Shown here: one piece after another, positions 2,855-46,435 of the stretch
Layout: each line of letters starts with the position of its first letter
Position numbering within the stretch: the stretch's first letter is position 1
Virus record (IMG/VR): IMGVR_UViG_3300010354_000145
Span: 1-46,534 of that record
Source: a virus
Direction: 5' to 3' (one strand)
Length of the DNA: 46,534 nucleotides
Notes under the pieces: model-generated
What the model was told of the DNA's origin: nothing
The model's database searches: none
The model's input: the letters and a program-made list of their open reading frames with translations, nothing else
Translations under genes and position numbers: made by a program

Positions 2855-3159
2855 ATGCTTTTTATACAAAATAACGTTAAAAACGATTAAAAAAGCCTTT
2901 TTTAATTATAGCTAAGTGTTTTTATTCGTTTATGCTTGTTAAGTCTTTATGCGTCTAAAAGCATAAACGAATGGGGCATTTATGTGCTTTTAATCCTCTG
3001 AGACCTTGTGATTTATGTGCTTATAAATGTGCCGGGTGCTTGTGATCTTTGGCGTCATTGTATCAGCACTCCGCGAAAAAGTCAAGACCCCCCGAGTTAT
3101 CAAATCCCCACACATCCCCGCACAAAATCCCCCAACCGCTCATAAATACTCCCCAGGAC
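2855..3159. other. Non-coding region with inverted and iteron-like repeats
   Basis: About 300 bases without a convincing gene. It contains a near-palindrome with 9-base arms around one C (2887-2905); a 14-base perfect inverted repeat ATTCGTTTATGCTT / AAGCATAAACGAAT (2924-2937 and 2959-2972, 21-base spacer); TTTATGC at 2852, 2929 and 2946, and inverted at 2961; a 12-base direct repeat ATTTATGTGCTT at 2978 and 3011; and C-tracts between 3088 and 3154. The density of repeats suggests a regulatory or replication-related site, but no family is recognised. Confidence 0.6.
2924..2972. repeat. 14-bp perfect inverted repeat, 21-base loop
   Basis: Arms 2924-2937 and 2959-2972 are exact reverse complements. 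The loop contains another TTTATGC. No T-run follows, so it is not a typical terminator. It could be a protein-binding cruciform or an RNA hairpin. Confidence 0.75.
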
Positions 3160-3188
3160 TTGACAATAATTCCAGAGCATCTTACAAT
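3160..3188 (+). promoter_or_regulatory. Consensus sigma70 promoter
   Basis: TTGACA at 3160-3165, a 17-base spacer, and TACAAT at 3183-3188. This is an almost perfect host-type promoter, 27 bases before the 57 aa gene at 3216, and differs from the repeated 28-base element used by its neighbours. Confidence 0.8.
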
Positions 3189-3215
3189 ACCTCTATACAC
3201 ATTCGGAGCGTACTT

Positions 3216-3389
3216 ATGTCGGTTGCTTATTCCCAGGCACAGAAGCAGCGTTATAGAATCACTCTGGATCTATCAGTGTTCGGTGACTTCGACCCACACC
3301 AGATTGATTGGGAGAAGTTATTCAAGCTAGAACCTGCAGAGAAGTGTGAAGCTTATGTGGAAGATCTTAATGCACCTGATCGTTGGTGA
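3216..3389 (+). CDS. Small hypothetical protein, 57 aa
   Basis: I chose ATG 3216, which follows the sigma70 promoter at 3160-3188 and a GGAG ribosome site (CGGAGCGTACTT). A longer frame from 3027 would run through the promoter and is rejected. The product MSVAYSQAQKQRYRITLDL... continues with FDPHQIDWEKLFKLEPAEK, a charged helical segment, and ends in NAPDRW. No family recognised. Its own strong promoter suggests high early expression. Confidence 0.65.
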   Translation: MSVAYSQAQKQRYRITLDLSVFGDFDPHQIDWEKLFKLEPAEKCEAYVEDLNAPDRW

Positions 3390-3418
3390 GTTGGTAACAA
3401 CGAACGTCGGTGAGTATT

Positions 3419-3446
3419 ACTGGGCCCCTGAAAGTGTCCCTATAGT
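3419..3446 (+). promoter_or_regulatory. Repeated promoter-like element, copy 5
   Basis: Identical over 28 bases to copies 1, 2 and 4. It is followed by GTAAGG and a purine/A-C-rich leader to the GTG start at 3467. Confidence 0.6.
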
Positions 3447-3466
3447 GTAAGGACGCAACGCAAACA

Positions 3467-3712
3467 GTGAGCACCACCTACCAGCACAATGCTCTCGACA
3501 TTTCTTATAACGGTTGGGAGAACTATGAGACCTGGAATGTTGCACTCTGGATCAACAATGATGAGGGTCTTTATCACCTTGCTATGGAGTGTGGTGATTA
3601 TCAATCCTTCTGTGATTGTGTCGGTTCTGATGCAGTAACTGGTGATGGGGTTCGTTATAATGACCCCAAGGTAAATGTGATCCAAATCAATAGCGACGTG
3701 TTCGACCTGTAA
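3467..3712 (+). CDS. NYETW-type small phage protein, 81 aa
   Basis: Starts with GTG (GTGAGCACC), 20 bases after TATAGT of element copy 5. No ATG is available upstream in frame. The core NGWENYETWNVALWINND is a signature I recognise from a widespread family of small phage proteins annotated only as a domain of unknown function (DUF7249-like, from memory). The rest is acidic, with CGDYQSFCDCVGSD. It is likely an early or accessory cytosolic protein; function unknown. Confidence 0.75.
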   Translation: MSTTYQHNALDISYNGWENYETWNVALWINNDEGLYHLAMECGDYQSFCDCVGSDAVTGDGVRYNDPKVNVIQINSDVFDL

Positions 3713-3791
3713 GGTATAACAAAGGGGAATGAGATGCGCCTTATAAAGACACTCAGTTCACACACAGTTTCTAACACTTTTCTTTTTGATT

Positions 3792-3932
3792 ATGTCCAAG
3801 TCTGTTCTCATTTCTCTGCTTGCACAAGGTAACACTGGCGCGGAGATTCTGCAGATTCTTGATAGTCTTACAGAGGACAATCAGCAGTCCATTTCTTATA
3901 ACGAACCGACTGCAGATCCTATTGAGTTCTGA
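3792..3932 (+). CDS. Small hypothetical protein, 46 aa
   Basis: ATG at 3792 (MSKSVLISLLAQGNTGAEIL...). The N-terminal half is an amphipathic helix of the form LISLLAQGNTGxxILxILDSL, which I recall from several cyanophage small proteins; the tail SISYNEPTADPIEF is acidic and disordered. An 80-base leader separates it from the NYETW gene, so it may be cotranscribed. No function is known to me. Confidence 0.6.
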   Translation: MSKSVLISLLAQGNTGAEILQILDSLTEDNQQSISYNEPTADPIEF

Positions 3933-4174
3933 TGCTAACTGTGTGCCCCTTGGTCGTTAGACAGAGCGTGAGCGATGTTGACTGTGAGGGGCACTTATGT
4001 TAGGATGGTGCTTATAGTGGTTCGGCAGCGTTTCTGCGGGGTTCTTGTGGCGTGCGGGGCGGCGTTGTTATAAGCGCCCCCCCCCTAATTAAAAAAAGCA
4101 AACTACCCTAACCTACAGAGGTGACAAATCGACCTCTAAATATCACAATCATAAAAATTTTCCGGAGTATTAAA
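3933..4174. other. GC-rich non-coding stretch with hairpins
   Basis: About 240 bases without a gene. It holds the imperfect long hairpin 3935-4003, a G-rich stretch with a GGGGCG/CGCCCC hairpin and a run of nine C (4056-4085), and a 6-base inverted repeat AGAGGT/ACCTCT (4117-4137). Its composition differs sharply from the AT-rich sequence that follows. Confidence 0.5.
3935..4003. ncRNA. Possible structured RNA (long hairpin)
   Basis: Outer arms CTAAC (3935-3939) and GTTAG (3999-4003) enclose perfect 8-base inner arms GTGCCCCT (3943-3950) and AGGGGCAC (3987-3994), separated by small internal loops, with a 36-base apical loop. It directly follows the 46 aa gene and lacks a T-run. It could be a 3' UTR structure, a small RNA or a processing signal. 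The RNA-gene interpretation is inference. Confidence 0.3.
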
Positions 4175-4285
4175 ATGTTCACCCGTTGGATTCATAAAAA
4201 CGGTAAGTCCCGCCCAGACAAACGCTATAAGAGCTACAAGTCTCAAGCAAAGACTAATGGAGCAAAGAAAAGAAAGAAGAAGTGA
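4175..4285 (+). CDS. Very basic small protein, 36 aa
   Basis: ATG at 4175 with a strong ribosome site (CCGGAG, 8 bases upstream), the same leader motif as the 4445 gene. The product MFTRWIHKNGKSRPDKRYK... ends in AKKRKKK, with about half of its residues Lys/Arg/His, suggesting nucleic-acid binding. A terminator follows at 4329-4362. No family recognised. Confidence 0.65.
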   Translation: MFTRWIHKNGKSRPDKRYKSYKSQAKTNGAKKRKKK

Positions 4286-4328
4286 GAAGAAGAGCGCCCT
4301 ATTGGAACTTCTGGAAGGTTGTATTAGC

Positions 4329-4362
4329 GGGGTGGATGATTCGTTATCCACGCCCTTTTTTT
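4329..4362 (+). terminator. Rho-independent terminator
   Basis: GTGGAT / ATCCAC arms, extended by G-C pairs around a one-base mismatch or bulge (GGGGTGGAT...ATCCACGCCC), enclose a short loop and are followed by seven T. It ends the unit carrying the 36 aa basic gene. Confidence 0.85.
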
Positions 4363-4444
4363 ATTGCACTAGGATTTTGTGTGATTGTGATATATAATGC
4401 GGTTACAAAATAAAATGGAAAGAAAAAATTCCGGAGATATTTTT

Positions 4445-4645
4445 ATGCCTCTAACTGAAAAAATATATCACATATATGCAAAGGATAAGTGTTTATTTCA
4501 TTCACTGAAAGAAGAAGAATTTAATATCACTTGGAAAACATTGCATAATCTTGTTGAAGTACTTGATACGAAATATGCAGGTAATGATTTAACCTATGAA
4601 GAACTGATAGTGAATAAGAAGGTGGTCGGAGAATCTTCTTATTGA
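4445..4645 (+). CDS. Conserved-type cyanophage hypothetical protein, 66 aa
   Basis: I chose ATG 4445, which has CCGGAG at the right distance. An in-frame ATG at 4397 would add 16 residues but lacks a ribosome site, and a TATAAT box at 4393-4398 overlaps it. The product MPLTEKIYHIYAKDKCLFHS... continues as EEEFNITWKTLHNLVEVL and ends GESSY. This small alpha/beta protein is, from memory, of a type common in cyanophages near the baseplate genes. Function unknown. Confidence 0.7.
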   Translation: MPLTEKIYHIYAKDKCLFHSLKEEEFNITWKTLHNLVEVLDTKYAGNDLTYEELIVNKKVVGESSY

Positions 4646-4670
4646 CAAATACTAAATAAACGGATAAAAT
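4642..4670 (+). promoter_or_regulatory. Sigma70-type promoter with a late-like motif in its spacer
   Basis: TTGACA (4642-4647), 17-base spacer, TAAAAT (4665-4670), 24 bases before the glycosyltransferase-like gene. TTGACA overlaps the stop codon of the 66 aa gene. The spacer contains CTAAATAAA, close to the late-type TAATAAATA motif, so the gene may be read both early and late. Confidence 0.6.
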
Positions 4671-4694
4671 TGAATTTGAAGGTTTATTCAACTT

Positions 4695-5462
4695 ATGGCA
4701 AAAGGATTTACTGTTAAGGCAGCATCACCAAAACCCAAGACTGATGATTGGGATTATGATGCAATTAAAGAAAGAATGAAAGGTAAGAGTATTGTATTCT
4801 GTCTTCCTGGAAGAGGATGCTCTTTTATCTTTCTAAAAGCATTTGTACAACTTTGTTTTGATCTTGTACAAAATGGAATGGCAATTCAGATTTCTCAAGA
4901 TTATTCTTCCATGGTGAACTTTGCACGTTGTAAAGTATTAGGTGCGAATGTTCTCCGTGGACCAAAGCAAGTTCCTTGGGATGGAAAACTTCAGTATGAT
5001 TATCAACTATGGATTGATAGTGATATTGTTTTTGATTCGAACAAATTTTGGCAACTCTGTGATGTTGCTCTTTCAGAAGATGGGACGGAGCGTGAAATTG
5101 TCGCAGGATGGTATGCAACTGAAGATGGTCACACAACCTCTGTCGCACACTGGTTAGAGGAGGATGATTTCCGTAAGAATGGTGGAGTGATGAATCATGA
5201 AACTGTGGAATCAATCAGCAAGCGTCGTAAGCCATTCACTGTAGACTACACAGGTTTTGGGTGGGTGCTCATTAAGAAGGGTGTCTTTGAGAACCTTGAG
5301 TATCCTTGGTTTGCTCCGAAGATGCAAGTCTTTGAGTCTGGTGCAGTTCAGGATATGTGTGGTGAAGATGTTTCATTCTGTCTTGATGCAAAAGAGAATG
5401 GACTAGAGATCTGGTGCGATCCTCGTATTCGTGTGGGTCATGAGAAAACTCGTATTATCTGA
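4695..5462 (+). CDS. Glycosyltransferase-like protein, 255 aa
   Basis: Likely a GT-A-fold sugar transferase that modifies phage or host glycans or DNA; the substrate is not evident. Features: an N-terminal Rossmann-like start (GKSIVFCLPGRGCSF, residues 30-44); an Arg-containing helix (SMVNFARCKVLG); a DSD metal/nucleotide-sugar motif at residues 108-110 (WIDSDIVF); an acidic GED motif near residue 223 (CGEDVSFC), typical of the catalytic base region; and a late His (RVGHEK). The start has a sigma70 promoter upstream. Its stop overlaps the next ATG (TGATGG), so it forms an operon with the 50 aa and 46 aa genes. Such genes are common in cyanophage genomes. Confidence 0.7.
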   Translation: MAKGFTVKAASPKPKTDDWDYDAIKERMKGKSIVFCLPGRGCSFIFLKAFVQLCFDLVQNGMAIQISQDYSSMVNFARCKVLGANVLRGPKQVPWDGKLQYDYQLWIDSDIVFDSNKFWQLCDVALSEDGTEREIVAGWYATEDGHTTSVAHWLEEDDFRKNGGVMNHETVESISKRRKPFTVDYTGFGWVLIKKGVFENLEYPWFAPKMQVFESGAVQDMCGEDVSFCLDAKENGLEIWCDPRIRVGHEKTRII

Positions 5463-5614
5463 TGGAAAAACTTTATAATATTCTTTATAAAGGAAGGAAA
5501 ATTTATACAAACCTCAGTGCTGATTCATGTACTGAGGTTCTTCAAGACCTCTCAGAATCTTTTTTCTCGGGAGAAGATATTAATTTAGAATTTATAGAAT
5601 TGGAGGAAACTTAA
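5462..5614 (+). CDS. Conserved-type small cyanophage protein, 50 aa
   Basis: ATG 5462 overlaps the stop of the glycosyltransferase-like gene. The product MEKLYNILYKGRKIYTNLSA... ends LEFIELEET. It begins with a beta-hairpin pattern and ends in an acidic tail whose codons supply the GGAGG ribosome site for the next gene. I recall similar small proteins in cyanophages at this place. Function unknown. Confidence 0.7.
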   Translation: MEKLYNILYKGRKIYTNLSADSCTEVLQDLSESFFSGEDINLEFIELEET

Positions 5615-5755
5615 ATGGCTAAAGGTGGAAGTAGTAAGATTGTTTTTCAACCAGGAGCACCGAAGAAGACTCGACAAGGACGTTCAGCTCGTACATTACT
5701 CAGTGCAACCTCTCGTAATGGTAAAAAGAAAAGATATCGCGGACAAGGAAAATAG
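5615..5755 (+). CDS. Small basic conserved cyanophage protein, 46 aa
   Basis: Begins directly after the preceding TAA, with TTGGAGGAAACTTAA giving a strong ribosome site. The sequence MAKGGSSKIVFQPGAPKKT... ends RNGKKKRYRGQGK. It is rich in Lys/Arg/Gly and probably unstructured, with a likely nucleic-acid or virion-interior role. Its motif SSKIVF(D/Q)PGAPK is familiar from many T4-like cyanophages. A terminator follows at 5766. Confidence 0.75.
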   Translation: MAKGGSSKIVFQPGAPKKTRQGRSARTLLSATSRNGKKKRYRGQGK

Positions 5756-5765
5756 TATAGATAAG

Positions 5766-5789
5766 GCAGGGGGAAACTCCTGCTTTTTT
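5766..5789 (+). terminator. Rho-independent terminator with a GAAA tetraloop
   Basis: Seven-base arms GCAGGGG/CTCCTGC (one G-U pair) close a GAAA tetraloop and are followed by six T. It separates the glycosyltransferase operon from the next gene. Confidence 0.85.
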
Positions 5790-5799
5790 ATTAGACTTT

Positions 5800-6495
5800 A
5801 TGGCATATCTAAATCACAATCTCCCAACAATTACCTGTTATATTCGTAATGAGTTTTTGTATAATCATAAAAAAGGGCACGGAGAGGTAACTTTATGCGA
5901 CGTACACTCCGTAGCGTCCTTAGAGAAGCACGTACCCCTCTTTGAGGCGTTTTTAGAGAACGGGGTAAACTGGACTCGAAGACCAATTCATGCTTTTTGT
6001 TGGAAACCTAATGCACCCGTTCCAGAACTAGAGGAGTGTATGTGGTGGGATTGCTTCTCCCCTTATATTGATGTTCAAGTACGTTCAAGATTGGCTAACT
6101 TACGTGCTGAACTAATCAATTATAGAGGAGAAAAAAATGAAGGAACCTATATGTTCACTCTTGATTGGTCATGGGAATCAAAATCTACATTGAATACTAA
6201 TTTTAGTGAGACTCCAGAACACAAATGTGCCCATTTTTTCAAAATGGATAATGGAAACTTCTATGCATACCCTAATAATAAGATATTATGGTATGATGAT
6301 GCATGGACAAAGAATAGAATTACCAAAAATCCAGGGTATGAAATAGATTTGACCGAATATTCCGTTGAGAATCGTCGTAAAATAGAGACATCAGACGATT
6401 TTATGTACGAAATCAAAGAAATTCGGGATAGCAACCCCGTAAAAAGTTCTGATTTAACAAATCAGGAGCTAAAAAATGACCAAACAAGTCGATAA
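5800..6495 (+). CDS. Conserved-type cyanophage protein of unknown function, 231 aa
   Basis: The sequence MAYLNHNLPTITCYIRNEFL... has an N-terminal region with HGEVTLCDVHSV and RPIHAFCWKP, a conserved-looking aromatic/Cys block (ECMWWDCFSPYIDV), a central TYMFTLDWSW and a charged C-terminal tail. There are no membrane segments or signal peptide. From memory, a protein of this type commonly sits just upstream of gp25 in cyanophages, so a structural or morphogenesis role is possible but unproven. It starts 10 bases after the terminator and overlaps the next gene by 20 bases. Confidence 0.75.
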   Translation: MAYLNHNLPTITCYIRNEFLYNHKKGHGEVTLCDVHSVASLEKHVPLFEAFLENGVNWTRRPIHAFCWKPNAPVPELEECMWWDCFSPYIDVQVRSRLANLRAELINYRGEKNEGTYMFTLDWSWESKSTLNTNFSETPEHKCAHFFKMDNGNFYAYPNNKILWYDDAWTKNRITKNPGYEIDLTEYSVENRRKIETSDDFMYEIKEIRDSNPVKSSDLTNQELKNDQTSR

Positions 6496-6730
6496 AGACG
6501 AAAATTTCATGAAAAATGAGTGGGGAACTCAATTTTTATCATCTGAATATGGTTGGGAAGCAAAAATAGAGAAGCAAAAGATGCTTCGTGAGATTGCAAA
6601 TGACGATTTAACACCAAAAAAGCATGATTTTTACCACCAAAACGAAATTCATGCAAAAATTCGTAATGATGAAGACTATGATGATTGGGAATATGGAACT
6701 GAACCACTCTATGAGTCCAAAAATCGTTAA
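6476..6730 (+). CDS. Acidic hypothetical protein, 84 aa
   Basis: ATG 6476 lies within the end of the 231 aa gene, with AGGAG 8 bases upstream. The product MTKQVDKDENFMKNEWGTQF... is highly charged, with AKIEKQKMLREIANDDL predicted as a helix and the acidic DEDYDDWEYG near the end. No family recognised. The overlap suggests coupled expression with the upstream gene; the late-type motif just downstream starts the gp25 unit. Confidence 0.7.
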   Translation: MTKQVDKDENFMKNEWGTQFLSSEYGWEAKIEKQKMLREIANDDLTPKKHDFYHQNEIHAKIRNDEDYDDWEYGTEPLYESKNR

Positions 6731-6736
6731 TAAATA
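6728..6736 (+). promoter_or_regulatory. Late-type promoter motif before gp25
   Basis: TAATAAATA, close to the T4 late promoter TATAAATA, ends 20 bases before the gp25 start and overlaps the previous stop codon. Confidence 0.6.
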
Positions 6737-6756
6737 AGTTAGATTTATTCATTTTT

Positions 6757-7158
6757 ATGCCTGTAGAACGGGTAAGTAAAGGTTTTAAAGACTTAAGCAT
6801 GTCCTTTCAAGTCAATCCGATCAATTATGATTTGATTGCACTTAAAAATGAGACTGCGATTGCCCGTTCTATCCGAAATCTAGTGCTTACATATCCCGGA
6901 GAGAAGTTTTTTAACGAAAATCTAGGATCAAAAGTAAGTCGTTCTCTCTTTGATAACATTGATGATATATCAGCATCTGTTATAAAAGATGAAATTGAAA
7001 ATACGATTCAAAATTATGAGCCAAGAGTTGATCTGATTGATGTTGTAGTTGATCCTGATTACGATAATAATAATTTCAATGTTACCGTGAATTACTACAT
7101 TATAGGAATTGATGCTCTTCCGCAGCAATTATCATTTGCACTTCAGCCAACACGATAA
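6757..7158 (+). CDS. gp25: Baseplate wedge subunit gp25
   Basis: A 133 aa protein, against 132 in T4. It is the small GPW/gp25-fold protein of the baseplate wedge, which contacts gp6 and the inner baseplate near the sheath. Family-like segments are NETAIARSIRNLVLTYPGEK, FNENLGSKVSRSLFDN and the C-terminal strands VTVNYYIIG. The next gene, gp6, starts at the base after its stop, the usual cyanophage pairing. A late-type TAATAAATA lies 20 bases upstream. Identification rests on sequence pattern, length and synteny. Confidence 0.93.
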   Translation: MPVERVSKGFKDLSMSFQVNPINYDLIALKNETAIARSIRNLVLTYPGEKFFNENLGSKVSRSLFDNIDDISASVIKDEIENTIQNYEPRVDLIDVVVDPDYDNNNFNVTVNYYIIGIDALPQQLSFALQPTR

Positions 7159-9075
7159 ATGGCATTAGTTAATTTTACCAATCTAGACTTCGATCAAATT
7201 AAAACTTCGATAAGGGATTATCTTAGATCGAATTCAAATTTTACTGACTATGATTTTGAGGGTTCAAACCTCTCAACACTAATTGATGTATTAGCATATA
7301 ATACCTATATTTCCTCATACAATGCTAATATGGTTAGCAATGAGGTTTTTATTGATAGTGCAACTTTAAGAGAAAATGTTGTTGCATTAGCAAGAAATAT
7401 AGGATATGTACCTAGATCAAGAACAGCGTCAAGAGCTACCGTTTCATTTTTTGTAGATACAACTGGATTTTCAACGAAACCACTTACATTAACCCTTAAA
7501 AAAGGAGTTGTCTGCACTTCTTCGAGCACATTTGGATCTGAAAGTTACACATTTGCTATTCCGTCTGATATAACAGTCCCTATTGTAAATGGAATAGCAT
7601 CTTTTGATGAAATTAAAGTTTATGAGGGGACATTTTTAACCTCAAATTTTACAGTTCAAGCAGAAAATCCAGCACCGCCTCAAAGATATATCTTAGAGAA
7701 TGCTAATATTGATACTTCTACGATTCAAGTATCAGTAAGAGATAGTCAATCTAGCACATCATCAAGAAAATTTAATCTATCCAATAATTTATTTGAAATT
7801 ACATCAACTTCAAGAGTATTCTTTTTACAAGAAATTGAAGATCAAAGATATGAATTAATTTTTGGCGATGGAATTTTTGGAGAGAAACTTCAGGCACAAA
7901 ATTATATTGATGTTTCTTATATTGCTACCAATGGAGAATCTGGAAATGGTGTTTCTGCATTTTCTTTCAATGGAAGAATTGTAGATAATAACAATAATCT
8001 CGTTACGACTGGAATTTCTTTAATTACCACTAATATTGTTTCTGAGGGTGGAAAAGAAATTGAATCAATTGATTCAATTAAGAAATATGCACCGCAAGTT
8101 TATGCTACACACAATCGAGCCGTAACTGCTGCCGATTATGAAGCATTGATTCCAAAAATTTATCCAGAAACTCAATCGGTTTCTGTTTTTGGTGGAGAAG
8201 ACTTAATCCCCCCTCAATATGGAAAGGTTTTTATTACAATCAAACCTTTCAATGGACAATTTGTACCCAATTCAATTAAAGATAACTTAAAAAGTGAGTT
8301 AAGAAAATATAGTGTTGCTGGAATTGTTGCAGAAATTGAAGATTTGAAGTACTTATATGTCGAAGTAGATACAACTGCTTATTATAATTCAAATCTTGCT
8401 CCAACCTCAGATTATGTAAAGACTTTAATATTAGATAATATTAATGCTTATGCTGCTTCTACAGAATTAAATAAGTATGGAGCAAGATTTAAGTATAGTA
8501 AGTTTCAAAAAATTGTTGATGATAGTCATGAATCAGTCACTTCAAATATTACAAAAATACAAATGAGAAGAGACTTGAGAGCAAGTTTAAATCAGTTTGC
8601 TAGTTATGAAATTTGTTATGGAAATGCATTTCATATTAAAAATATGAGTGGCTATAACATAAAGTCTTCTGGTTTTAAAGTTAGTGGAATTCCTGAAACG
8701 GTTTATCTTGGAGACATTCCAAATGCAGATGGAAAAAGGGGAACAGTTTTCTTGTTCTCAAACCCGGATTTCCCAAATCTACAAGTAAACCAAAAGTCTA
8801 TAGGAACGATTGATTATGAAAAAGGTGAAATTTTGCTAAATTCAATTAATATTATTTCAACTGAAAAAAATTCTGCTGGTGAAGCAATTATTGAAATTGC
8901 AGTAGTTCCAGTTTCGAATGATGTTCTAGGAAAACAGGATCTTTATTTACAACTAGATATTAATAAGAGTATTTTGAATATGAAGATTGATAGTATGTCC
9001 TCTGGTGCTGATATTTCAGCATCTTTATATGATGTTACCACAAGTTACACAAACGGCAGCCGTATAAGAAAATAA
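7159..9075 (+). CDS. gp6: Baseplate wedge subunit gp6
   Basis: A 638 aa protein (T4 gp6 is about 660). gp6 forms the ring joining the baseplate wedges. The N-terminus is typical: LDFDQIKTSIRDYLRSNS, DYDFEGSNLSTLIDVLAYNT and the NMVSNEVFIDSATLRENV helix, the start of a gp6/Mu gp47-like (baseplate J) protein. The middle has an IFGDGIFGEKL motif and the segment HNRAVTAADYEALIPKIYPE, both characteristic of baseplate J family members. It directly follows gp25 and precedes the gp7-like gene by 4 bases, so translation is likely coupled. Confidence 0.93.
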   Translation: MALVNFTNLDFDQIKTSIRDYLRSNSNFTDYDFEGSNLSTLIDVLAYNTYISSYNANMVSNEVFIDSATLRENVVALARNIGYVPRSRTASRATVSFFVDTTGFSTKPLTLTLKKGVVCTSSSTFGSESYTFAIPSDITVPIVNGIASFDEIKVYEGTFLTSNFTVQAENPAPPQRYILENANIDTSTIQVSVRDSQSSTSSRKFNLSNNLFEITSTSRVFFLQEIEDQRYELIFGDGIFGEKLQAQNYIDVSYIATNGESGNGVSAFSFNGRIVDNNNNLVTTGISLITTNIVSEGGKEIESIDSIKKYAPQVYATHNRAVTAADYEALIPKIYPETQSVSVFGGEDLIPPQYGKVFITIKPFNGQFVPNSIKDNLKSELRKYSVAGIVAEIEDLKYLYVEVDTTAYYNSNLAPTSDYVKTLILDNINAYAASTELNKYGARFKYSKFQKIVDDSHESVTSNITKIQMRRDLRASLNQFASYEICYGNAFHIKNMSGYNIKSSGFKVSGIPETVYLGDIPNADGKRGTVFLFSNPDFPNLQVNQKSIGTIDYEKGEILLNSINIISTEKNSAGEAIIEIAVVPVSNDVLGKQDLYLQLDINKSILNMKIDSMSSGADISASLYDVTTSYTNGSRIRK

Positions 9076-9079
9076 GAAT

Positions 9080-12000
9080 ATGGTAGAATCAAGAGTTAAG
9101 ATTAGTTCGATTGTTGAAAATCAACTTCCTCTCTTTGTTAAGGAAGAATTTCCTTTAGTAGAAGAATTTTTATCACAGTATTACATTTCTTTAGAGTCTC
9201 AAGGTGGAATATCAGATATTCTTCAAAATATTGATCATTATATAAAATTAGAACAACTCACAAATCTTGTTAGTTCCACCACCACAACTTCAAGTATTAC
9301 TTTTAGTGATGATGTTATTAATGTCTCATCAACGTCAGGATTTCCAGAATCTTATGGATTGTTAAAAATTGGAAATGAAATTATTACATACACATCCAAA
9401 ACAAATACTACATTTGGTGGTTGTATAAGAGGATTTAGTGGAGTTACCTCGTATCATGATTCAACAAAACCAGATCATTTAGTTTTCTCTTCCTCAGAAA
9501 TTGAAGAGCATTTAAGTGGAACGTCGGTATCTAATTTAAGTATTCTCTTTTTGAAAGAGTTTTTTAGAAAAGTAAAAACGCAATTTGCTCCGGGGTTTGG
9601 TGAAAGAGATTTAGACTCAGATTTAAATCAAAATCTTTTCATAAAGCAATCAAAAGATTTTTATTCATCTAAAGGAACTGATCAGTCTTTTGAAATTCTT
9701 TTTAGAGCTTTATATGGTGAAGATGTTGAAGTAATTAAACCAAGAGATTATCTTTTTATTCCATCTAATGCACAATATCGTGTTACCCGCGACTTAGTTG
9801 TAAAAGCACTTGATGGGGATCCTTTAGATTTACAAAACAGAACTTTATATCAAGATCAAGATTCTAATTTTCCAAAAGCATATGGATCTATTAATAATAT
9901 AGAAAGAATTGTAAGAGGATCTGAAGAATATTACGTAATCAGTTTAGATTATGATTATAATAAAGATATTAATGTAGAAGGATCTATTTTTGGTTCTTTT
10001 TCAATTCACTCACAAACAAAGTTAATTACACCTGCAGTAATTAACTCTAATACTCTTGATGTTGATTCTACTATCGGATTTCCAAAATCCGGATCACTAG
10101 TCGCTGATCTTGATAACGGAACTTCTGTTATCATTAACTATACTTCAAAATCTTATACTCAATTTTACGGTTGCACAGGAATAGATCAAAGTTTAGAATC
10201 TGGTCAAGATTTAAGAATTAACTCTTATGCTTATGGTTATTCTGGAATTGGAACAGAGAATGTTGTAAAGGTAAGAGTTACTGGAGTTTTATCAGATCTT
10301 CAAATTGATCAGAATACAAAGTATCATACTGAAGGTAGTAAAATTCAAGTAAAAACTCTTGGAAAAGATGTAAATGATATTAAAGCAAATAATTGGATCT
10401 TTAATATTGCAACAACTTATAATATTAATAAATTAGAACTTGTTGATTCTTCAAACTTTTCTTATAGAATAACAACATTTGATAATCATAGTTTATTTGT
10501 CGGAAACGAAGTAAAGTTAATTTTTACTGATGGAATTGAAATATTTTCATCCGTCTCGGAAGTTTTAAACACAAAATCTTTTGTAGTTACTGGTCAAGGT
10601 CAGTTAAACGTTTCTAGAAAAGACAAAGTTCAAAAATTAATTCAAAAAACTGATGCGTTAAATTTTCCATCAGCAAATATTTACAGTACGGATATTCAAA
10701 ATACTTATCAGGATCAAGATGGGTCAATTTACGTAGCATCATCATCTTTACCAAGTTACTTAAATCAACCTTTAACAATACAAAATAAATCTGTAATTTT
10801 CTCAGGGACTTTTAATGGAGAGGAACTGTCCATAGGTGTTCATGGTTTTTATACTGGAGATGCTATCTTCTATACTTCGGTTTCATCTACAAATACTCTA
10901 GGTATTAGTGATGGGTTATACTACGTAAAAAAAATTAGTTCAACCTCAATTAAACTTGCAAGAAGTAGATCAAATTTATACAATGGAAAATACTTAAGTT
11001 TTAGTGCAACGGTATCAAATAACCAAATTGTTTTAAATGATCTTGCTAATCAATCTTTAGAAAGTCAAAAAATAGTCAGAAAAATTTCAAACCCACAAAT
11101 TCCTAATGAACCACAATTAACATCTCCAGGTCCAATTGGAATTTTGGTCAATGGAGTTGAAATTTTAAATTACAAATCCAAAGATGCAATTTTTTATGGT
11201 CCACTAGAAGAAATTAATGTATTATCTCCAGGATCAAACTATGATGTTATTAATCCACCAGTTCTATCAATAAGTGATACTGTAGGAACAGGAGCTACTG
11301 GATATTGTGAAGTTGAAGGTAATTTTGAAGAAATTCGTGTAATTGATGGTGGATTTGATTATGTATCGGAACCAATTATCACAATTACTGGTGGAAATGG
11401 GTTTGGAGCAAAAGCAAAGGCAAATCTTTTTGAATTTGAGCACTTTGTAACTTTTAGTGCGATTCAAAATTCTGGGCAAGTTAATTTAACTAGCAATACA
11501 ATTGGACTTTCTTCTTATCATAAATTTAGAGATGGTGAAAAAATTGTTTATAAACCCGATGGTCAACAAGCAATTGGTGGTTTAACAACAGATTCTGTTT
11601 ATTATGCTTCAGTTCAAGATTCTTTAAGCATAAAATTACATAACACTTATAATGATGCGATTGCTGGTATTAATACAATAGATTTAACCTCTTATGGAGT
11701 AGGAAGTCAAAGAATCTTATCTTTTAATTTGAAGAAAAAAATATCTTCAATTACTGTTTATGATAATGGATCTGGATATAAAAATAGAAAAATTTCGGTA
11801 ACATCATCCGGAATTAACACCTATTCAAATTCTATTACTGCAAAAAATCATGGATATTCTACTGGAGAAATTATTAAGTATGAAACCAGTGGAGTTGAGA
11901 TTGGTGGATTAACCTCTGGGCAATCTTACTACATTACTTCTATAGATAAAGATTCTTTTAAATTATCTTTAGTTGGATCTGCAACAACAATTGGAATTGG

Positions 12001-34618: not shown

Positions 34619-35056
34619 ATGAAAATGACGAAAAAATTTGATAATCTCAATGAAACTTTTAACGTAGATGGTGATATTGTTCCTGTTAAATCAGAGCAAG
34701 TTTCCAATGAAATAGAAAAGTATGCTTCAGCAGCAGATGATATTAAAAAAGATTATGAATACGCTAGAGGCAATTTGTATTCTTTAGTTGAAAAAGGGCA
34801 GGAGGCAATTAACGGTATTCTTGAATTAGCGCAAGAAAGTGAAATGCCTAGAGCTTATGAAGTTGCAGGTCAATTGATTAAAAACACAAGTGAAATTGCA
34901 GAAAAACTGATGGCGCTGCATAAGGTTAAAAAAGATGTTGAAGAAGAAAAAACAAAAGGTCCTACTACAGTAAACAATGCACTTTTCGTTGGATCTACTG
35001 CAGAGTTAGCTAAATTATTAAAACAACAGTCTCAAATAGACGATGAAAACATTTAA
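34619..35056 (+). CDS. gp16: Small terminase subunit gp16
   Basis: A 145 aa protein (T4 gp16 is 164). It forms the ring that regulates the gp17 packaging motor and recognises DNA. It is predicted all-helical, with NEIEKYASAADDIKKDYEYA, GNLYSLVEKGQEAINGILEL, SEMPRAYEVAGQLIKNTSEI and the C-terminal ALFVGSTAELAKLLKQQSQI, all fitting cyanophage gp16. ATGs at 34619 and 34625 are both possible. Its end overlaps the next small gene by 14 bases. Confidence 0.88.
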   Translation: MKMTKKFDNLNETFNVDGDIVPVKSEQVSNEIEKYASAADDIKKDYEYARGNLYSLVEKGQEAINGILELAQESEMPRAYEVAGQLIKNTSEIAEKLMALHKVKKDVEEEKTKGPTTVNNALFVGSTAELAKLLKQQSQIDDENI

Positions 35057-35198
35057 ACAGTTTCAAGAAGAGTGGACTAATAAATATAAAAAGAGTATTG
35101 ATTGCTCCAATCCGAAAGGATTTTCTCAACGTGCTCATTGTGCAGCGAGAAGAAAAAGAGCAAAAGGTGAAGAGACTAAATCAAAACCAGTTGAATAA
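35043..35198 (+). CDS. Small basic head-internal-type protein, 51 aa
   Basis: MKTFKQFQEEWTNKYKKSID resembles the capsid-targeting N-terminus of T4 internal proteins (MKTYQEFIAEA in IPI). It continues CSNPKGFSQRAHCAARRKRA, a basic module known to me from other phages, where it ends in a KTKSKPV-like tail; here it ends ETKSKPVE. This suggests a DNA-binding protein packaged in the head and perhaps trimmed by gp21. It overlaps gp16 by 14 bases, and its TAA overlaps the next ATG. Confidence 0.65.
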   Translation: MKTFKQFQEEWTNKYKKSIDCSNPKGFSQRAHCAARRKRAKGEETKSKPVE

Positions 35199-36949
35199 TG
35201 CCTAAAATCAAGTCACATAAAACAGTTGAGCAAATTGCAAAGAAGCATCGTCTTGATGTTTCTTTCATACAAAAGCAACTTGATATGGGAGAACCTATTG
35301 AACACGAACATACCAAAGATCACGAATTAGCAATGGACATTGCTCTTCAACATCTTGATGAAATTCCAGATTATTATACTCGTTTGAAAAAGATGGAAGC
35401 AGATGCTAAAAAGCATCATAAAAAATTTAAAGATGTTACTGAAGAAGGTCTTAGAGATTGGTTTGGAAAATCTAAATCAAAAGATGGAAAGTCTGGATGG
35501 GTAAATGTTGTGACTGGCGGAACTTGTGCTAGTGACGAACCAGGAGAAGGCGTTCCAAAGTGTGTCTCTTCGGCAAAGAGAGCGAGTATGACCCCAGCAG
35601 AAAGACTTTCTGCAGCAAGAAGAAAAAAAGAAGCAGATCCAGGACAACAACAAAAAACTGGCGCGGCAAAACCAACATACGTTTCAACTGATAGTCCAAG
35701 AAAAAAAATGAAAAAAGAAGAAGTGGAACTACAAGAAGTCAAAGATAAACCAGGAAAAAGTAGTGGTAAAAAGGACGCTTGCTATCATAAAGTAAAGTCA
35801 CGTTATAGTGTTTGGCCAAGTGCATATGCATCGGGAGCACTGGTTAAGTGTCGTAAAGTTGGTGCTGCAAACTGGGGAACTAAATCGGAGGAAACCATGC
35901 AAGAAGAGGAAAGATATTGTCCATTATGTGATAAGAGAGAAACAAGATCTCAATGTTCTTACGGCGAAAAGGCATGGGATAAAGTTTCTGTAAAAGATGA
36001 AGAGTATTCAATGGTTAGATCAGAAATCCAAACCATTATGAATGCTGCGAAAAGACTTAATGCAAAAGTAGGTAAAGGTGAAGGTAATCTTGAAGCATGG
36101 GTACAATCAAAGATTACTAAAGCAGCAGATTATATTGATACCGCAGCAGATTATATTGATAGTGGAGAGATGGAAGAACAGAAACTAGTGGATAAAATTA
36201 AAAGTGAAGTGTTAGACGAAAAATGTTGGCCTGGTTATAAAAAGAAAGGCATGAAAACAATGTTTGGAAAGAGATATCCAAATTGTGTAAAAGCAGAAGA
36301 TGTAACTATTGAAGATGCTGATGGTAATACATTTGCGGAGGTTGTGGATTTAATTAAACCAGAACCAATCAAAGGATTTAAGTCTCAAGTAGAAGAAGCA
36401 ACACGTCTTCAAGCACAAACCGGTAACATAGTTGGAGTTACTCTTTCTTGGAGAGGAAAATATTACTCACTGAGAATGTTTTTCCCGCAGGTAAAACTCC
36501 CAACAAGAAAGGAAATAAATGATGAACTTCAGAAGGTTTATCCAGGTTCTAATGTAATATATCATTCAGTTTCTGAACTTCAACCAGGACAACCTTTGAT
36601 TCAACCAGGACTTCAAGGTGGTTCATTAGCATCTCCAGGTCCATCTAAGAAATATGTAAAGCCATATGGAGAGCAAGTTGAATTTGATGAAGATTGGCAA
36701 AAAGTCAATCGTCAAGACAAAACAGATGGATTAAGTCAAGCAGCAGTTAATGCATATCGTCGTGAGAACCCTGGTTCGAAACTCCAAACTGCTGTTACTG
36801 AAAAAAATCCATCAGGTAAAAGAGCAAAACGTCGCTCTTCATTTTGTCGTAGAATGAAAGGAATGAAATCAAAATTAACATCAGCAAAAACTGCTAGAGA
36901 TCCGGATTCTAGAATTAATAAAGCACTTCGTCGTTGGAATTGTAATTAG
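35198..36949 (+). CDS. Mosaic Lys/Cys-rich protein, possibly head-internal, 583 aa
   Basis: Several short modules are joined: residues 1-75 (HTKDHELAMDIALQHLDEIP, DYYTRLKKM; DUF5661-like); ~80-135 (LRDWFGKSKSKDGKSGWVNV, GGTCAS...; DUF5872-like); ~185-225 (KDACYHKVKSRYSVWPSAYA, VKCRKVGAANWG); ~235-310 (CPLCDKRETRSQC, possible zinc site, then GNLEAWVQSKITKAADYIDT); CWPGYKKKGMKTMFGKRYPN; ~395-455 (LSWRGKYYSLRMFFPQVKLP, YPGSNVIYHSV); and the C-terminus GLSQAAVNAYRRENPGSKLQ...RINKALRRWNC (DUF6321-like). Domain names are from memory. It is very basic overall, so nucleic-acid binding is likely. It overlaps the previous gene by one base and lies between the terminase subunits. Possibly processed by the gp21 protease. 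Confidence 0.7.
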   Translation: MPKIKSHKTVEQIAKKHRLDVSFIQKQLDMGEPIEHEHTKDHELAMDIALQHLDEIPDYYTRLKKMEADAKKHHKKFKDVTEEGLRDWFGKSKSKDGKSGWVNVVTGGTCASDEPGEGVPKCVSSAKRASMTPAERLSAARRKKEADPGQQQKTGAAKPTYVSTDSPRKKMKKEEVELQEVKDKPGKSSGKKDACYHKVKSRYSVWPSAYASGALVKCRKVGAANWGTKSEETMQEEERYCPLCDKRETRSQCSYGEKAWDKVSVKDEEYSMVRSEIQTIMNAAKRLNAKVGKGEGNLEAWVQSKITKAADYIDTAADYIDSGEMEEQKLVDKIKSEVLDEKCWPGYKKKGMKTMFGKRYPNCVKAEDVTIEDADGNTFAEVVDLIKPEPIKGFKSQVEEATRLQAQTGNIVGVTLSWRGKYYSLRMFFPQVKLPTRKEINDELQKVYPGSNVIYHSVSELQPGQPLIQPGLQGGSLASPGPSKKYVKPYGEQVEFDEDWQKVNRQDKTDGLSQAAVNAYRRENPGSKLQTAVTEKNPSGKRAKRRSSFCRRMKGMKSKLTSAKTARDPDSRINKALRRWNCN

Positions 36950-36965
36950 TAATTAGGTTTTTATT

Positions 36966-38609
36966 ATGAGTGATGTATATCTTGGTAATCCATTATTAAA
37001 AAAAGCAAATACTCCCATTGAGTTTACTCAAGAACAAATTCTTGAGTTTCTTAAATGTCAGGATGACCCTGTTTATTTTGCTAACAATTATGTAAAAATT
37101 GTAACTCTAGACCATGGTCTGCAAACATTCAAGCCATATCATTTCCAAGAGAAATTAATTAATAATTTCCATAAGAATAGATTTAACATTTGCAAAATGC
37201 CACGACAGACTGGAAAGTCTACAACTGTGGTATCTTTTCTTTTACATTATGCGGTATTTAATGATAATGTAAATATTGGTATTCTCGCAAACAAAGCAGC
37301 AACAGCAAGAGAACTTTTAGATAGATTACAAACTGCTTATGAGAATCTACCAAAGTGGATGCAACAAGGAATTATTTCTTGGAACAAAGGTTCTCTAGAA
37401 CTTGAAAACGGCTCAAAGATTTTAGCAGCATCTACATCAGCATCTGCTGTTCGTGGTATGTCTTTTAATATTTTATTTTTGGACGAATTTGCGTTCGTTC
37501 CAAATCATATAGCAGACTCATTCTTTGCATCGGTTTATCCAACAATTACTTCAGGTAAACAAACTAAAGTTATTATAGTCTCAACTCCACACGGTATGAA
37601 CCATTTCTACCGAATGTGGCATGATGCTGAAAAAGGTAAAAATGAATATGTCTTTACTGATGTTCATTGGAGTGAGGTTCCTGGTCGTGATGAAGAATGG
37701 AAGGCACAAACTATTGCAAACACTTCAGAACAACAATTTAAAGTTGAATTTGAATGTGAATTTTTAGGATCTGTTGACACTTTAATTGCACCAAGCAAAC
37801 TCAGATCTCTCGTATACGACCATCCTAAGACCCGGAGCGCGGGTTTAGATGTATATGAAGACCCTATTGAAAATCATGATTATCTAATCACTGTAGACGT
37901 TGCTAGAGGGGTGGGAAACGATTATTCTGCATTTACTGTAGTGGACATAACTCAATTTCCACATAAAGTAGTTGCAAAGTATAGGAACAATGAAATAAAA
38001 CCAATGTTATTCCCAAGTATAGTTCATGAAGCAGCAACCGCATATAACAACTCTTACATTTTATGTGAAGTAAATGATGTTGGAGATCAAGTAGCAAGTA
38101 TTCTTCAATATGATTTGGAATATAATAATCTACTCATGTGCTCCATGAGAGGAAGAGCGGGACAGATTGTTGGACAAGGATTTTCTGGAAAGAAAACTCA
38201 ACTTGGGGTGAAGATGTCCAAAACGGTTAAAAAAGTTGGATGCCTTAATCTTAAAACAATGATTGAGGAAAATAAACTTCTTTTAAATGATTATGAAATC
38301 ATCAGTGAATTAACAACCTTTATTCAAAAACATAATTCATTTGAAGCAGAAGAAGGATGTAATGATGATCTTGCAATGTGTCTGGTAATTTATGCTTGGT
38401 TGGTTGCACAAGATTATTTTAAAGAACTCACTGATCAAGACGTAAGAAAAAGATTATATGAAGAACAAAAAAATCAAATTGAACAAGATATGTCTCCCTT
38501 TGGATTTATTTCAGATGGATTAGATAGTAATAGTTTTGTTGATGTTGATGGCGATAGATGGTTTGTTGATGAATATGGAGATCGTGCTTACATGTGGGAG
38601 TACATGTAA
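36966..38609 (+). CDS. gp17: Large terminase subunit gp17
   Basis: A 547 aa protein (T4 gp17 is 610). It is the ATP-driven DNA packaging motor and headful nuclease, acting at the portal. Visible: Walker A MPRQTGKST (residues 78-86), Walker B ILFLDEFAF with Asp173/Glu174, coupling motif STPHG (207-211), and nuclease acidic residues in TVDVARGVGND (Asp311), EVNDVGD (Glu368) and GCNDDLA (Asp467/468). Start ATG 36966 has a weak AGG upstream. The next gene starts at the base after its stop. Unlike T4, it does not overlap gp16; two genes lie between. Confidence 0.97.
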   Translation: MSDVYLGNPLLKKANTPIEFTQEQILEFLKCQDDPVYFANNYVKIVTLDHGLQTFKPYHFQEKLINNFHKNRFNICKMPRQTGKSTTVVSFLLHYAVFNDNVNIGILANKAATARELLDRLQTAYENLPKWMQQGIISWNKGSLELENGSKILAASTSASAVRGMSFNILFLDEFAFVPNHIADSFFASVYPTITSGKQTKVIIVSTPHGMNHFYRMWHDAEKGKNEYVFTDVHWSEVPGRDEEWKAQTIANTSEQQFKVEFECEFLGSVDTLIAPSKLRSLVYDHPKTRSAGLDVYEDPIENHDYLITVDVARGVGNDYSAFTVVDITQFPHKVVAKYRNNEIKPMLFPSIVHEAATAYNNSYILCEVNDVGDQVASILQYDLEYNNLLMCSMRGRAGQIVGQGFSGKKTQLGVKMSKTVKKVGCLNLKTMIEENKLLLNDYEIISELTTFIQKHNSFEAEEGCNDDLAMCLVIYAWLVAQDYFKELTDQDVRKRLYEEQKNQIEQDMSPFGFISDGLDSNSFVDVDGDRWFVDEYGDRAYMWEYM

Positions 38610-43589: not shown

Positions 43590-43910
43590 ATGAAATCTTT
43601 CAGGCAATTTATCTCAGAATCAGTTAATATTGCTGGCGATTTCACAGGAAATCTTTACATTAACTCGCAACAAGAACAACCACAACAAGTTGGTGAAGAA
43701 TATGTTGCAGATGTAATGTGGAATGGAAGTTTATATCGTTTAGAATTAGTTACTAAGACTGGAATTCCATCAGTAAGAGATCTTGGTGAACAATTACAAT
43801 CCGATTATCCCGGAGCAGTTGTTCATCAAATTTATCCAGTTACAGAAAAGAATTTAAACATCAAAAACGCACAAAGATATCACCCATCAAAATTGGAATG
43901 GATTGATTAA
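43590..43910 (+). CDS. Head core/internal-type protein, 106 aa (gp68 position)
   Basis: ATG 43590 gives MKSFRQFISESVNIAGDFTG. The opening MKxFxxF(I/L)xE resembles T4 internal-protein capsid-targeting sequences, and ISE at residues 8-10 fits the gp21 (I/L)xE cleavage rule. Residues 40-90 (VADVMWNGSLYRLELVTKTG, LGEQLQSDYPGAVVHQIYPV) share a layout with a domain of the 583 aa protein. By position it corresponds to gp68. A longer reading from 43560 overlaps gp67 and is not needed. Its TAA overlaps the next ATG. Confidence 0.7.
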   Translation: MKSFRQFISESVNIAGDFTGNLYINSQQEQPQQVGEEYVADVMWNGSLYRLELVTKTGIPSVRDLGEQLQSDYPGAVVHQIYPVTEKNLNIKNAQRYHPSKLEWID

Positions 43911-45227: not shown

Positions 45228-45785
45228 ATGGCTCATAGACCAGTTGGGGTTGGTTCCTCATTTACTTTTTCTACAGGTGCTGCAACTACCGGTGCTAATT
45301 CATTCTCAGTTCAATCAAGTGTACTGAGAGTTGTTGCTGAAGGTGCAGGTGCATATGTAAAAATTGGAGTTGGAACTCCTTCTGCAACAAACGCAGATTA
45401 TTATGTTCCCGCAGGAAAGTCAGAAACTCTTGCGCTCACTAAAGCATCGAATCGTGTTGTTGGAATAACCACTGGAACAACAACAATTGTTACTGTTCCA
45501 GAAGGAACTCAAGTTCCATTTGGTGTTGGTGATTATGTAACGTTAACTGCAAGTGGGCAATCATATTATGATTTTACTCATAAAGAAGTCATATCAGTTG
45601 ATACTTCTTCAAATGTAGATGGATATTATCAAACAAGAATGACTGTTGCTAATAATTCTAGTGGGATTGTAACTGCATTTTCTTCAAGAGATGCAACTGT
45701 ATCGATTTCAAATAAAGTTTCTGCATATGGTGCAGGTTCAGGAACTCTTTACTACCAACAAGTACAAATCACAGGGCAAGCATAA
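45228..45785 (+). CDS. Probable virion decoration-type protein, 185 aa
   Basis: MAHRPVGVGSSFTFSTGAAT is followed by a Ser/Thr/Val/Gly-rich, apparently all-beta sequence: SSVLRVVAEGAGAYVKIGVG, SATNADYYVPAGKSETLALT, GVGDYVTLTASGQSYYDFTH, TLYYQQVQITGQ. Few charged residues and no Cys fit a stable capsid or tail surface protein. It has its own late-type motif. Its TAA overlaps the gp21 ATG (ATAATGA). Specific role unknown; head decoration is inferred from place and composition. Confidence 0.65.
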   Translation: MAHRPVGVGSSFTFSTGAATTGANSFSVQSSVLRVVAEGAGAYVKIGVGTPSATNADYYVPAGKSETLALTKASNRVVGITTGTTTIVTVPEGTQVPFGVGDYVTLTASGQSYYDFTHKEVISVDTSSNVDGYYQTRMTVANNSSGIVTAFSSRDATVSISNKVSAYGAGSGTLYYQQVQITGQA

Positions 45786-46435
45786 TGAAACTCATCACAG
45801 AAGAAATTGAATCAGTAGAAGTTATTACCGAAGAAAAAGACGGTAAAAAAACTCTTTATATTCAAGGTCCTTTCCTTCAAACCGAAGTTGTAAACAGGAA
45901 CGGTAGAATGTATCGTATGCCTGTAATGGAAAGAGAAGTGAAGCGTTATACTGAGCAATATGTAAACAAAGGTCGTGCTCTTGGAGAACTTGGTCACCCA
46001 GATGGTCCTACTGTAAATCTGGATCGCGTTTCTCATAAAATTGTTTCTCTCCATAAAGAAGGAAATAATTTCATTGGTAAAGCACAAATTCTTTCCACAC
46101 CAATGGGTAAGATTGCCGAATCACTTTTGAAAGAAGGTGTTACTCTTGGAGTTTCTTCTCGTGGTATTGGTTCAGTCAGACCAACCAGGGAAGGATATAC
46201 TGAAGTTGGTGAAGATTTTATGCTTGCAACCGCTGCTGATATTGTTGCTGATCCCTCTGCACCTGATGCTTTTGTTCAGGGAATTATGGAAGGTAAGGAA
46301 TGGATCTGGGATGGTGGTATGTTAAGAGAAAAAGTTGCAGAAAACACTAAACGTAGAATAAATACTCTCGTTGATAATGGTGTTCTTGAAGAATATAAGT
46401 TATCTCTTTTTAATGAGTTTTTAAACTCATTGTAA
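45785..46435 (+). CDS. gp21: Prohead core protease gp21
   Basis: A 216 aa protein (T4 gp21 is 212). It is the serine-type protease that matures the T4-type prohead, cutting gp22, gp23, gp67/68 and internal proteins after (L/I)xE. Catalytic candidates: His71 in GELGHPDGP, Ser124/125 in LGVSSRGIG, Asp152/156 in ATAADIVADPSAPDAF. The N-terminus MKLITEEIESVEVITEE contains ITE sites compatible with self-cleavage. ATG overlaps the preceding stop. Confidence 0.95.
   Translation: MKLITEEIESVEVITEEKDGKKTLYIQGPFLQTEVVNRNGRMYRMPVMEREVKRYTEQYVNKGRALGELGHPDGPTVNLDRVSHKIVSLHKEGNNFIGKAQILSTPMGKIAESLLKEGVTLGVSSRGIGSVRPTREGYTEVGEDFMLATAADIVADPSAPDAFVQGIMEGKEWIWDGGMLREKVAENTKRRINTLVDNGVLEEYKLSLFNEFLNSL

Follow-up and report, generated by a model that had tools for sequence, protein, structure and literature searches.

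A shuffled multi-module protein and probable precursor, ORF583, is encoded between the terminase genes gp16 and gp17 of a T4-like cyanophage, and the new observation is that a phi-x-E motif (phi = V/I/L/M/F), which resembles the cut site of the T4 prohead protease gp21, stands directly before most module starts of this protein and its relatives. ORF583 is probably a precursor of internal head proteins that gp21 cuts into small pieces. The window, i.e. the whole stretch of 46,534 nt that was analysed (IMG/VR record IMGVR_UViG_3300010354_000145), belongs to a freshwater cyanophage known from sequence alone.

The genes gp16, ORF51, ORF583 and gp17 are located on one strand, and neighbours overlap or are separated by short gaps (Table 1). 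The first-pass annotation had placed two Lys/Cys-rich genes (51 and 583 aa) between the terminase subunits, and the coordinates, strands and lengths given there were correct. Both proteins are Lys/Arg-rich and contain Cys, ORF51 with a pI of 9.95, 27% K+R and 2 Cys, and ORF583 with a pI of 9.36, 19% K+R and 11 Cys. The first 14 nt of ORF51 lie within gp16, and its last base is also the first base of ORF583 (TAATG); the corresponding overlap with the start of the ORF583-type gene was found at the end of 61 of the 69 standalone module-A genes. A programmed frameshift fusing ORF51 to ORF583 was set aside, because reading of the sequence revealed no slippery heptamer and the TAATG coupling is enough. 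The S-PM2 late-promoter sequence NATAAATA (PMC2984593) was present in 12 copies on the plus strand of the window (raw count), several of them directly 5' of late genes; the copy at 35079 lies inside ORF51, 119 bp before ORF583.

Table 1. Genes, modules and predicted gp21-type sites (slash, predicted cut) in the window. CTS, capsid-targeting sequence.
Feature	Position	Strand	Match or remark
gp16, terminase small subunit, 5' flank	34619..35056	+	phrog_445 3.5e-51; Pfam DNA_Packaging PF11053
ORF51, CTS-like start MKTFKQFQE, then module A (basic, two-Cys)	35043..35198	+	
ORF583, probable modular precursor, order BCDEFGHI	35198..36949	+	
Module B (DUF5661)	35219..35398	+	PF18905 3.1e-13
Predicted site VTE/EG (E82), before module C	35441..35443	+	E82 >=90% conserved
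Module C (WVNVVTGGTC..., two Cys)	35450..35692	+	profile built here; phrog_3477, phrog_12753
Predicted site LQE/VK (E180), before module D	35735..35737	+	E180 >=90% conserved, alignment A1 only
Module D (ACYHKVKSRYSVWPSAYASGALVKCRK, two Cys)	35744..35878	+	profile built here
Predicted site MQE/EE (E236), before module E	35903..35905	+	phi-x-E motif in linker
Module E (RYCPLCDKRETRSQC)	35912..35989	+	profile built here
Module F (helical)	36002..36169	+	profile built here
Predicted site MEE/QK (E327)	36176..36178	+	phi-x-E motif in linker
Predicted site LDE/KCW (E341), before module G	36218..36220	+	phi-x-E motif in linker
Module G (two Cys)	36221..36292	+	profile built here
Predicted site FAE/VV (E381)	36338..36340	+	phi-x-E motif in linker
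Predicted site VEE/AT (E400), before module H	36395..36397	+	invariant in alignment A2
Module H (beta-beta-alpha-beta)	36404..36598	+	profile match to 43590-43910, hhalign probability 93.8
Predicted site FDE/DWQ (E498), before module I	36689..36691	+	invariant in A1, >=90% in A2
Module I (DUF6321), very basic, predicted piece pI 11.2	36692..36946	+	PF19846 1.6e-14
gp17, terminase large subunit, 3' flank	36966..38609	+	Pfam and PHROGs
Second CTS-led gene, MKSFRQFISE/S..., then standalone module H (phrog_1742), 3' of gp20	43590..43910	+	
gp21, prohead protease, presumed cutter	45785..46435	+	phrog_207 head maturation protease 4.8e-82

Profiles built in this analysis defined modules A-M. Eight of them (B-I) make up ORF583, so that the earlier count of at least five was an underestimate; two are Pfam families (DUF5661 and DUF6321), and different stretches of the protein match many separate PHROGs of unknown function. 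Relatives in S-SRM01, DSL-LC02, S-SCSM1 and S-B43 possess these modules in other orders and combinations, and across loci the profiles of modules A-M delineated many architectures, with module I in last position in 56 of the 57 representatives carrying it. The modules had also been described as known separately in other phages, and separate genes were indeed found both elsewhere and in the same window. Module A has its own gene in the window (ORF51), is an N-terminal fusion in S-SRM01 and is internal in DSL-LC02. Module I stands alone directly after a CTS at locus L328 (gp16, 2523-2933; ORF, 2953-3237; gp17, 3241-4893), and a related 143-aa form of this CTS plus module I gene lies between gp16 and gp17 at locus L269. 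Module H is matched by the C-terminal half of the 43590-43910 product (hhalign 93.8%, 27% identity, 48 columns), and the models of the two have a common strand-strand-helix-strand order. The predicted pieces are basic for modules C, D, G, H and I, acidic for E+F and near neutral for B.

Other domains are embedded in the mosaic proteins of relatives, including a DUF192 domain (PF02643; L077:5137-6990 and L058:4829-6994) and a SAM-lyase-family module (PF23780) in S-SZBM1_194 (L006:10253-12376), shortly 3' of an internal CTS-like ITYREFIAE/G. The same SAM-lyase-family module constitutes a standalone CTS-led gene in P-SSM2 (P-SSM2_114; L330:3495-4004). Searched by sequence against the PDB, ORF583 gave chance haemoglobin matches only and the SAM-lyase-family module gave no match. 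In S-SRM01, the gp16-gp17 interval also contains a gene annotated as endonuclease VII-like (L001:7777-8187), and a 135-aa ORF that starts similarly is present in the interval of locus L119; an endonuclease VII-like gene in this place could possibly drive module shuffling.

In T4, residues 4 and 7 of the CTS are responsible for targeting and residues 8 and 10 govern processing, a CTS with D10 allowing targeting while inhibiting processing (PMC9026906). When all six frames of the window were scanned, only two ORFs of at least 40 aa had a CTS-like start, namely ORF51 (module A) and 43590-43910 (module H), and the window's ORF583 had no N-terminal CTS. The likeness of MKTFKQF to T4 capsid-targeting sequences, pointed out in the first-pass annotation, holds family-wide for the targeting positions (F4 in 52/53, F7 in 53/53 and E9 in 50/53 distinct ORF51 relatives) but does not extend to the cleavage positions, as position 8 is mostly Q and position 10 mostly D, without the T4 cleavage residues (8 = I/L, 10 = E); the FQE at positions 7-9 would suit a looser cleavage motif. 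In the family of 43590-43910, which starts MKSFRQFISES, F4, F7 and E10 are invariant and position 8 is I, L or M throughout (44/44 aligned sequences). Inside the gp16-gp17 intervals, the strict CTS pattern was found nine times, compared to 0 in reversed sequences.

T4 gp21 cleaves after L/I-x-E (PMC9026906). The residues 5' of module starts showed a recurrent phi-x-E regardless of the preceding module, and the gp21 cutting suggested in the first-pass annotation is consistent with the occurrence of such motifs at module borders far beyond chance. Based on 60 representatives with <70% identity, a phi-x-E motif with its E at most four residues before the module was present at 182 of 296 junctions, compared to 32.7 (sd 5.3, maximum 49) after shuffling of each 20-residue upstream stretch, a test run on the data in which the module borders and the motif had first been spotted, the shuffling control being fixed afterwards. 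With a limit of six residues, the counts were 197 and 48.0 for the same 296 junctions, and in an earlier set of 30 representatives the motif was present at 124 of 178 junctions (36.5 expected). In that smaller set, phi-x-E was in excess in linkers (303 vs 181 expected, sd 11) and less frequent than expected inside modules (70 vs 91, sd 8.6). Among phi-to-E spacings, the enrichment ratio was 4.0 at spacing 2 and 1.4-2.4 at the others, while phi-x-K before modules was depleted (ratio 0.26).

The motif travels with modules H, G and I across differing upstream neighbours. Module H was preceded by a site at 43/43 junctions, with five different upstream neighbours, and module G at 24/25 D-G and 13/14 F-G junctions; the exceptions were the E-F and K-C junctions, where a site was present in just 3/15 and 0/3 cases, respectively. 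In ORF583 itself, four of the site glutamates (E82, E180, E400 and E498) vary little or not at all in alignments A1 and A2. The P3 residues in linkers (V 84, M 77, I 54, L 48, F 40) are broader than the L/I of T4. In the AlphaFold model of ORF583 (pTM 0.21; four rows from annotated phage records were left out of the alignment), small domains are separated by low-confidence linkers, with the sites at 82, 180, 236, 327, 341, 381 and 400 located in such linkers and the site at 498 directly after one.

The number of motifs was rejected as a telling sign, as ORF583 possesses 12 (eight in linkers and four inside modules) compared to 9.3 in shuffled sequences, and other proteins of the window are similar; it is the placement of the motif, not its number, that is unusual in ORF583. 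This ordinary total would also be expected of an uncut multidomain virion protein whose linker glutamates, a common residue there (13%), serve flexibility or solubility. Such a protein is nevertheless improbable, as the enrichment persists against shuffles of unchanged composition and peaks at a phi-to-E spacing of 2, and as the CTS of single-module versions ends in the same phi-x-E motif.

Packaging of the protein, as proposed in the first-pass annotation, agrees with reports of homologs in the virions of two relatives. In S-CREM2, whose virions contain 52 proteins according to mass spectrometry, the ORF583 homolog gp137 was detected with 4 peptides (4.1% coverage), as was the CTS-led gp136 (PMC10665884); the C-terminus of gp137 consists of modules H and I. 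The second homolog, S-SCSM1_29, is labelled 'virion protein' in the genome record, a label that is not exactly equivalent to detection by mass spectrometry (48 labels by hand count vs 45 proteins in the paper), and SSCSM1_30 is without this label. In the virions of S-SZBM1 (30 proteins by mass spectrometry), S-SZBM1_191 (module H), _192 (CTS and module I) and _194 were all missing. S-SZBM1_195 (87 aa), which is abundant in these virions, was considered as an internal peptide and rejected, as it had no module match and no CTS.

Among the 218 of 219 S-CREM2 genes that were scanned, a strict CTS within the N-terminal 12 residues was found in gp6, gp14, gp136 and gp154. All four proteins were detected in virions, compared to a chance expectation of 0.14 (Fisher p = 0.003), in a count that was not blind since some N-termini were known before the genome-wide tally. 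Of these, gp6 belongs to the SAM-lyase family (PF23780, 2.3e-19) and gp154 resembles cytidylyltransferases. A CTS-like sequence at the N-terminus or close to it was also noted in four virion-detected S-CREM2 proteins of L333, namely gp6 (838-2082; SAM-lyase family), gp12 (4705-7314; annotated as Cas9-like), gp13 (7311-7547; 78 aa) and gp14 (7580-9847; a kinase), the start being strict in gp6 and gp14. S-SCSM1_91, an NMNAT reported in the virion (L247:38819-40048), starts with the CTS MKSFLQFLKE/A, and the virion-detected S-CREM2 gp154 (L251:4609-5469) with MKNFSSFLTE/A; these CTS starts would account for the packaging of both proteins.

The T4 genes for gp67 and gp68 are located between gp20 and gp21, the place occupied by the module-H gene 43590-43910 in the window. 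ORF583 might be a prohead core protein, like T4 gp67, gp68 or gp22, that helps to build or size the head, with gp21 cutting it chiefly to empty the head and with no host role for the pieces. In these phages, phi-x-E motifs are also abundant in the gp22 scaffold, and T4 gp22 and gp67 each yield several peptides on cutting, which are mostly removed (PMC9026906). A core protein nonetheless appears unlikely given that the modules are mostly basic with paired Cys, occur singly behind CTSs, as internal proteins do, and are freely exchanged, that the SAM-lyase-family and DUF192 domains of relatives are unneeded by a scaffold, and that homologs are reported in finished virions.

Relatives of ORF583 were found by tblastn in 517 of 50,697 phage records, 470 of which are named Synechococcus, Prochlorococcus or Cyanophage. 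A set of loci was compiled from two viral-contig searches and annotated loci, those with gp16 and gp17 on one strand being kept (n = 89, window included). The gp16-gp17 distance varied from 690 to 6263 bp in this set, and at least one module protein was encoded between the two genes in 89/89 loci. As homologs were found in 517 records and a module protein in every one of these intervals, ORF583 is a regular feature of T4-like cyanophages and not a chance ORF. The gp16-gp17 region was already known as a gene-gain hot spot (Sullivan 2010, PMC3037559), and extra genes between gp16 and gp17 are therefore not new in themselves. Recombination at such a hot spot could in principle join gene fragments without any virion function, but this explanation is hardly credible in view of the constant presence of a module protein in the interval, the nearly invariable last position of module I, the strong constraint seen in the alignments and the homologs reported in virions.

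In the preferred reading, that of a cleavable precursor of internal head proteins, ORF583 would be made alongside the terminase genes and enter the prohead core, where gp21 would cut it after phi-x-E in the flexible linkers. The products would be about seven pieces (B, C, D, E+F, G, H and I; 4-11 kDa), mostly basic, plus short spacers, and the pieces would stay with or follow the DNA. ORF51 and 43590-43910 may each encode a further member of this set, imported through a T4-type CTS. The gp16-gp17 interval would act as a cassette in which modules are gained, lost and shuffled, most of them retaining their cut site. The shuffling of the modules, the placed and conserved motifs and the conserved CTSs are seen in the sequences themselves, while the gp21 cut, the stay of the pieces in the mature head, their passage to the host and any effect they have in it are inferred.

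Taken further, the gp16-gp17 interval might be an effector cartridge with a shuffled precursor, whose gp21-cut pieces would be ejected with the DNA and immediately disable or commandeer the host, the CTS-led single genes being ancestral; this extended view is put forward tentatively, and the odds are somewhat against it. Candidate effectors would be the SAM-lyase-family domain of relatives and module H, which perhaps adopts a Gp2-like RNA-polymerase-binding fold. Based on the models of module H (36404-36598 and 43590-43910), T7 Gp2 (4lk0_M) was the top match by VIA-align, tied with unrelated ribosomal rows (Z of 4.8, rmsd 2.3, 50 aligned, and Z of 5.2, rmsd 2.5, 50 aligned; Foldseek E ~1). Foldseek searches of both models against the PDB gave no match at E <=0.001. 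The modelled module H thus weakly resembles T7 Gp2 and the RNA polymerase epsilon subunit (YkzG), a likeness that is not significant. Because this likeness is weak and the SAM-lyase-family and DUF192 domains occur in relatives only, a host-directed role of the pieces, the least supported part of the earlier interpretation, is offered as a lead only.

Many cyanophage virion proteins are of unknown function. If the precursor reading is true, a rule of 'CTS plus phi-x-E borders' would reveal head-borne proteins from sequence and would explain the entry of an NMNAT, a kinase and a SAM-lyase-family protein into cyanophage virions, and the non-DNA cargo injected by T4-like phages would become testable from existing mass-spectrometry data. 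A module-shuffling precursor processed by the prohead protease would then represent an additional route of phage protein delivery into hosts. No earlier description of a precursor whose shuffled modules are bordered by prohead-protease motifs was found in the open-licence literature searched. Its parts are known, namely the internal proteins of T4, CTSs and maturation by gp21 (PMC9026906), as well as polyvalent proteins (PMC5512222).

The T4 internal proteins IPI, IPII and IPIII are, like the proteins described here, small and often basic, with an N-terminal CTS whose key residues are 4 and 7; they are cut by gp21 after L/I-x-E, and their gene content differs among relatives (PMC9026906). Unlike ORF583 and its relatives, which combine up to nine modules per chain with predicted sites at most borders, they are single genes with one N-terminal cut. 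They are also CTS-led, whereas the long ORF583 of the window is not, so the CTS likeness holds for ORF51 and 43590-43910 only. T4 gp22 and gp67 resemble ORF583 in having several gp21 sites in one chain, as predicted here, and some of the T4 peptides are retained (PMC9026906). They are, however, scaffold and core proteins, and not shuffled domain mosaics that are also found as CTS-led genes. To our knowledge, the head proteins of phiKZ and SPN3US show no module shuffling between terminase genes. They are similar in that a gp21-like protease cuts many of them C-terminal to Glu after a short motif and that some are ejected (PMC9026906). The polyvalent proteins of phages and conjugative elements, which are presumed to accompany the DNA and to take part in conflicts with the host, are likewise long domain chains (2-15 domains) and are reported to be notably scarce in cyanobacteria (Iyer et al. 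2017, PMC5512222). In contrast to the mostly small modules of ORF583, for which the separate gp21 is the presumed cutter, polyvalent proteins consist mainly of larger enzyme domains and often contain their own peptidase.
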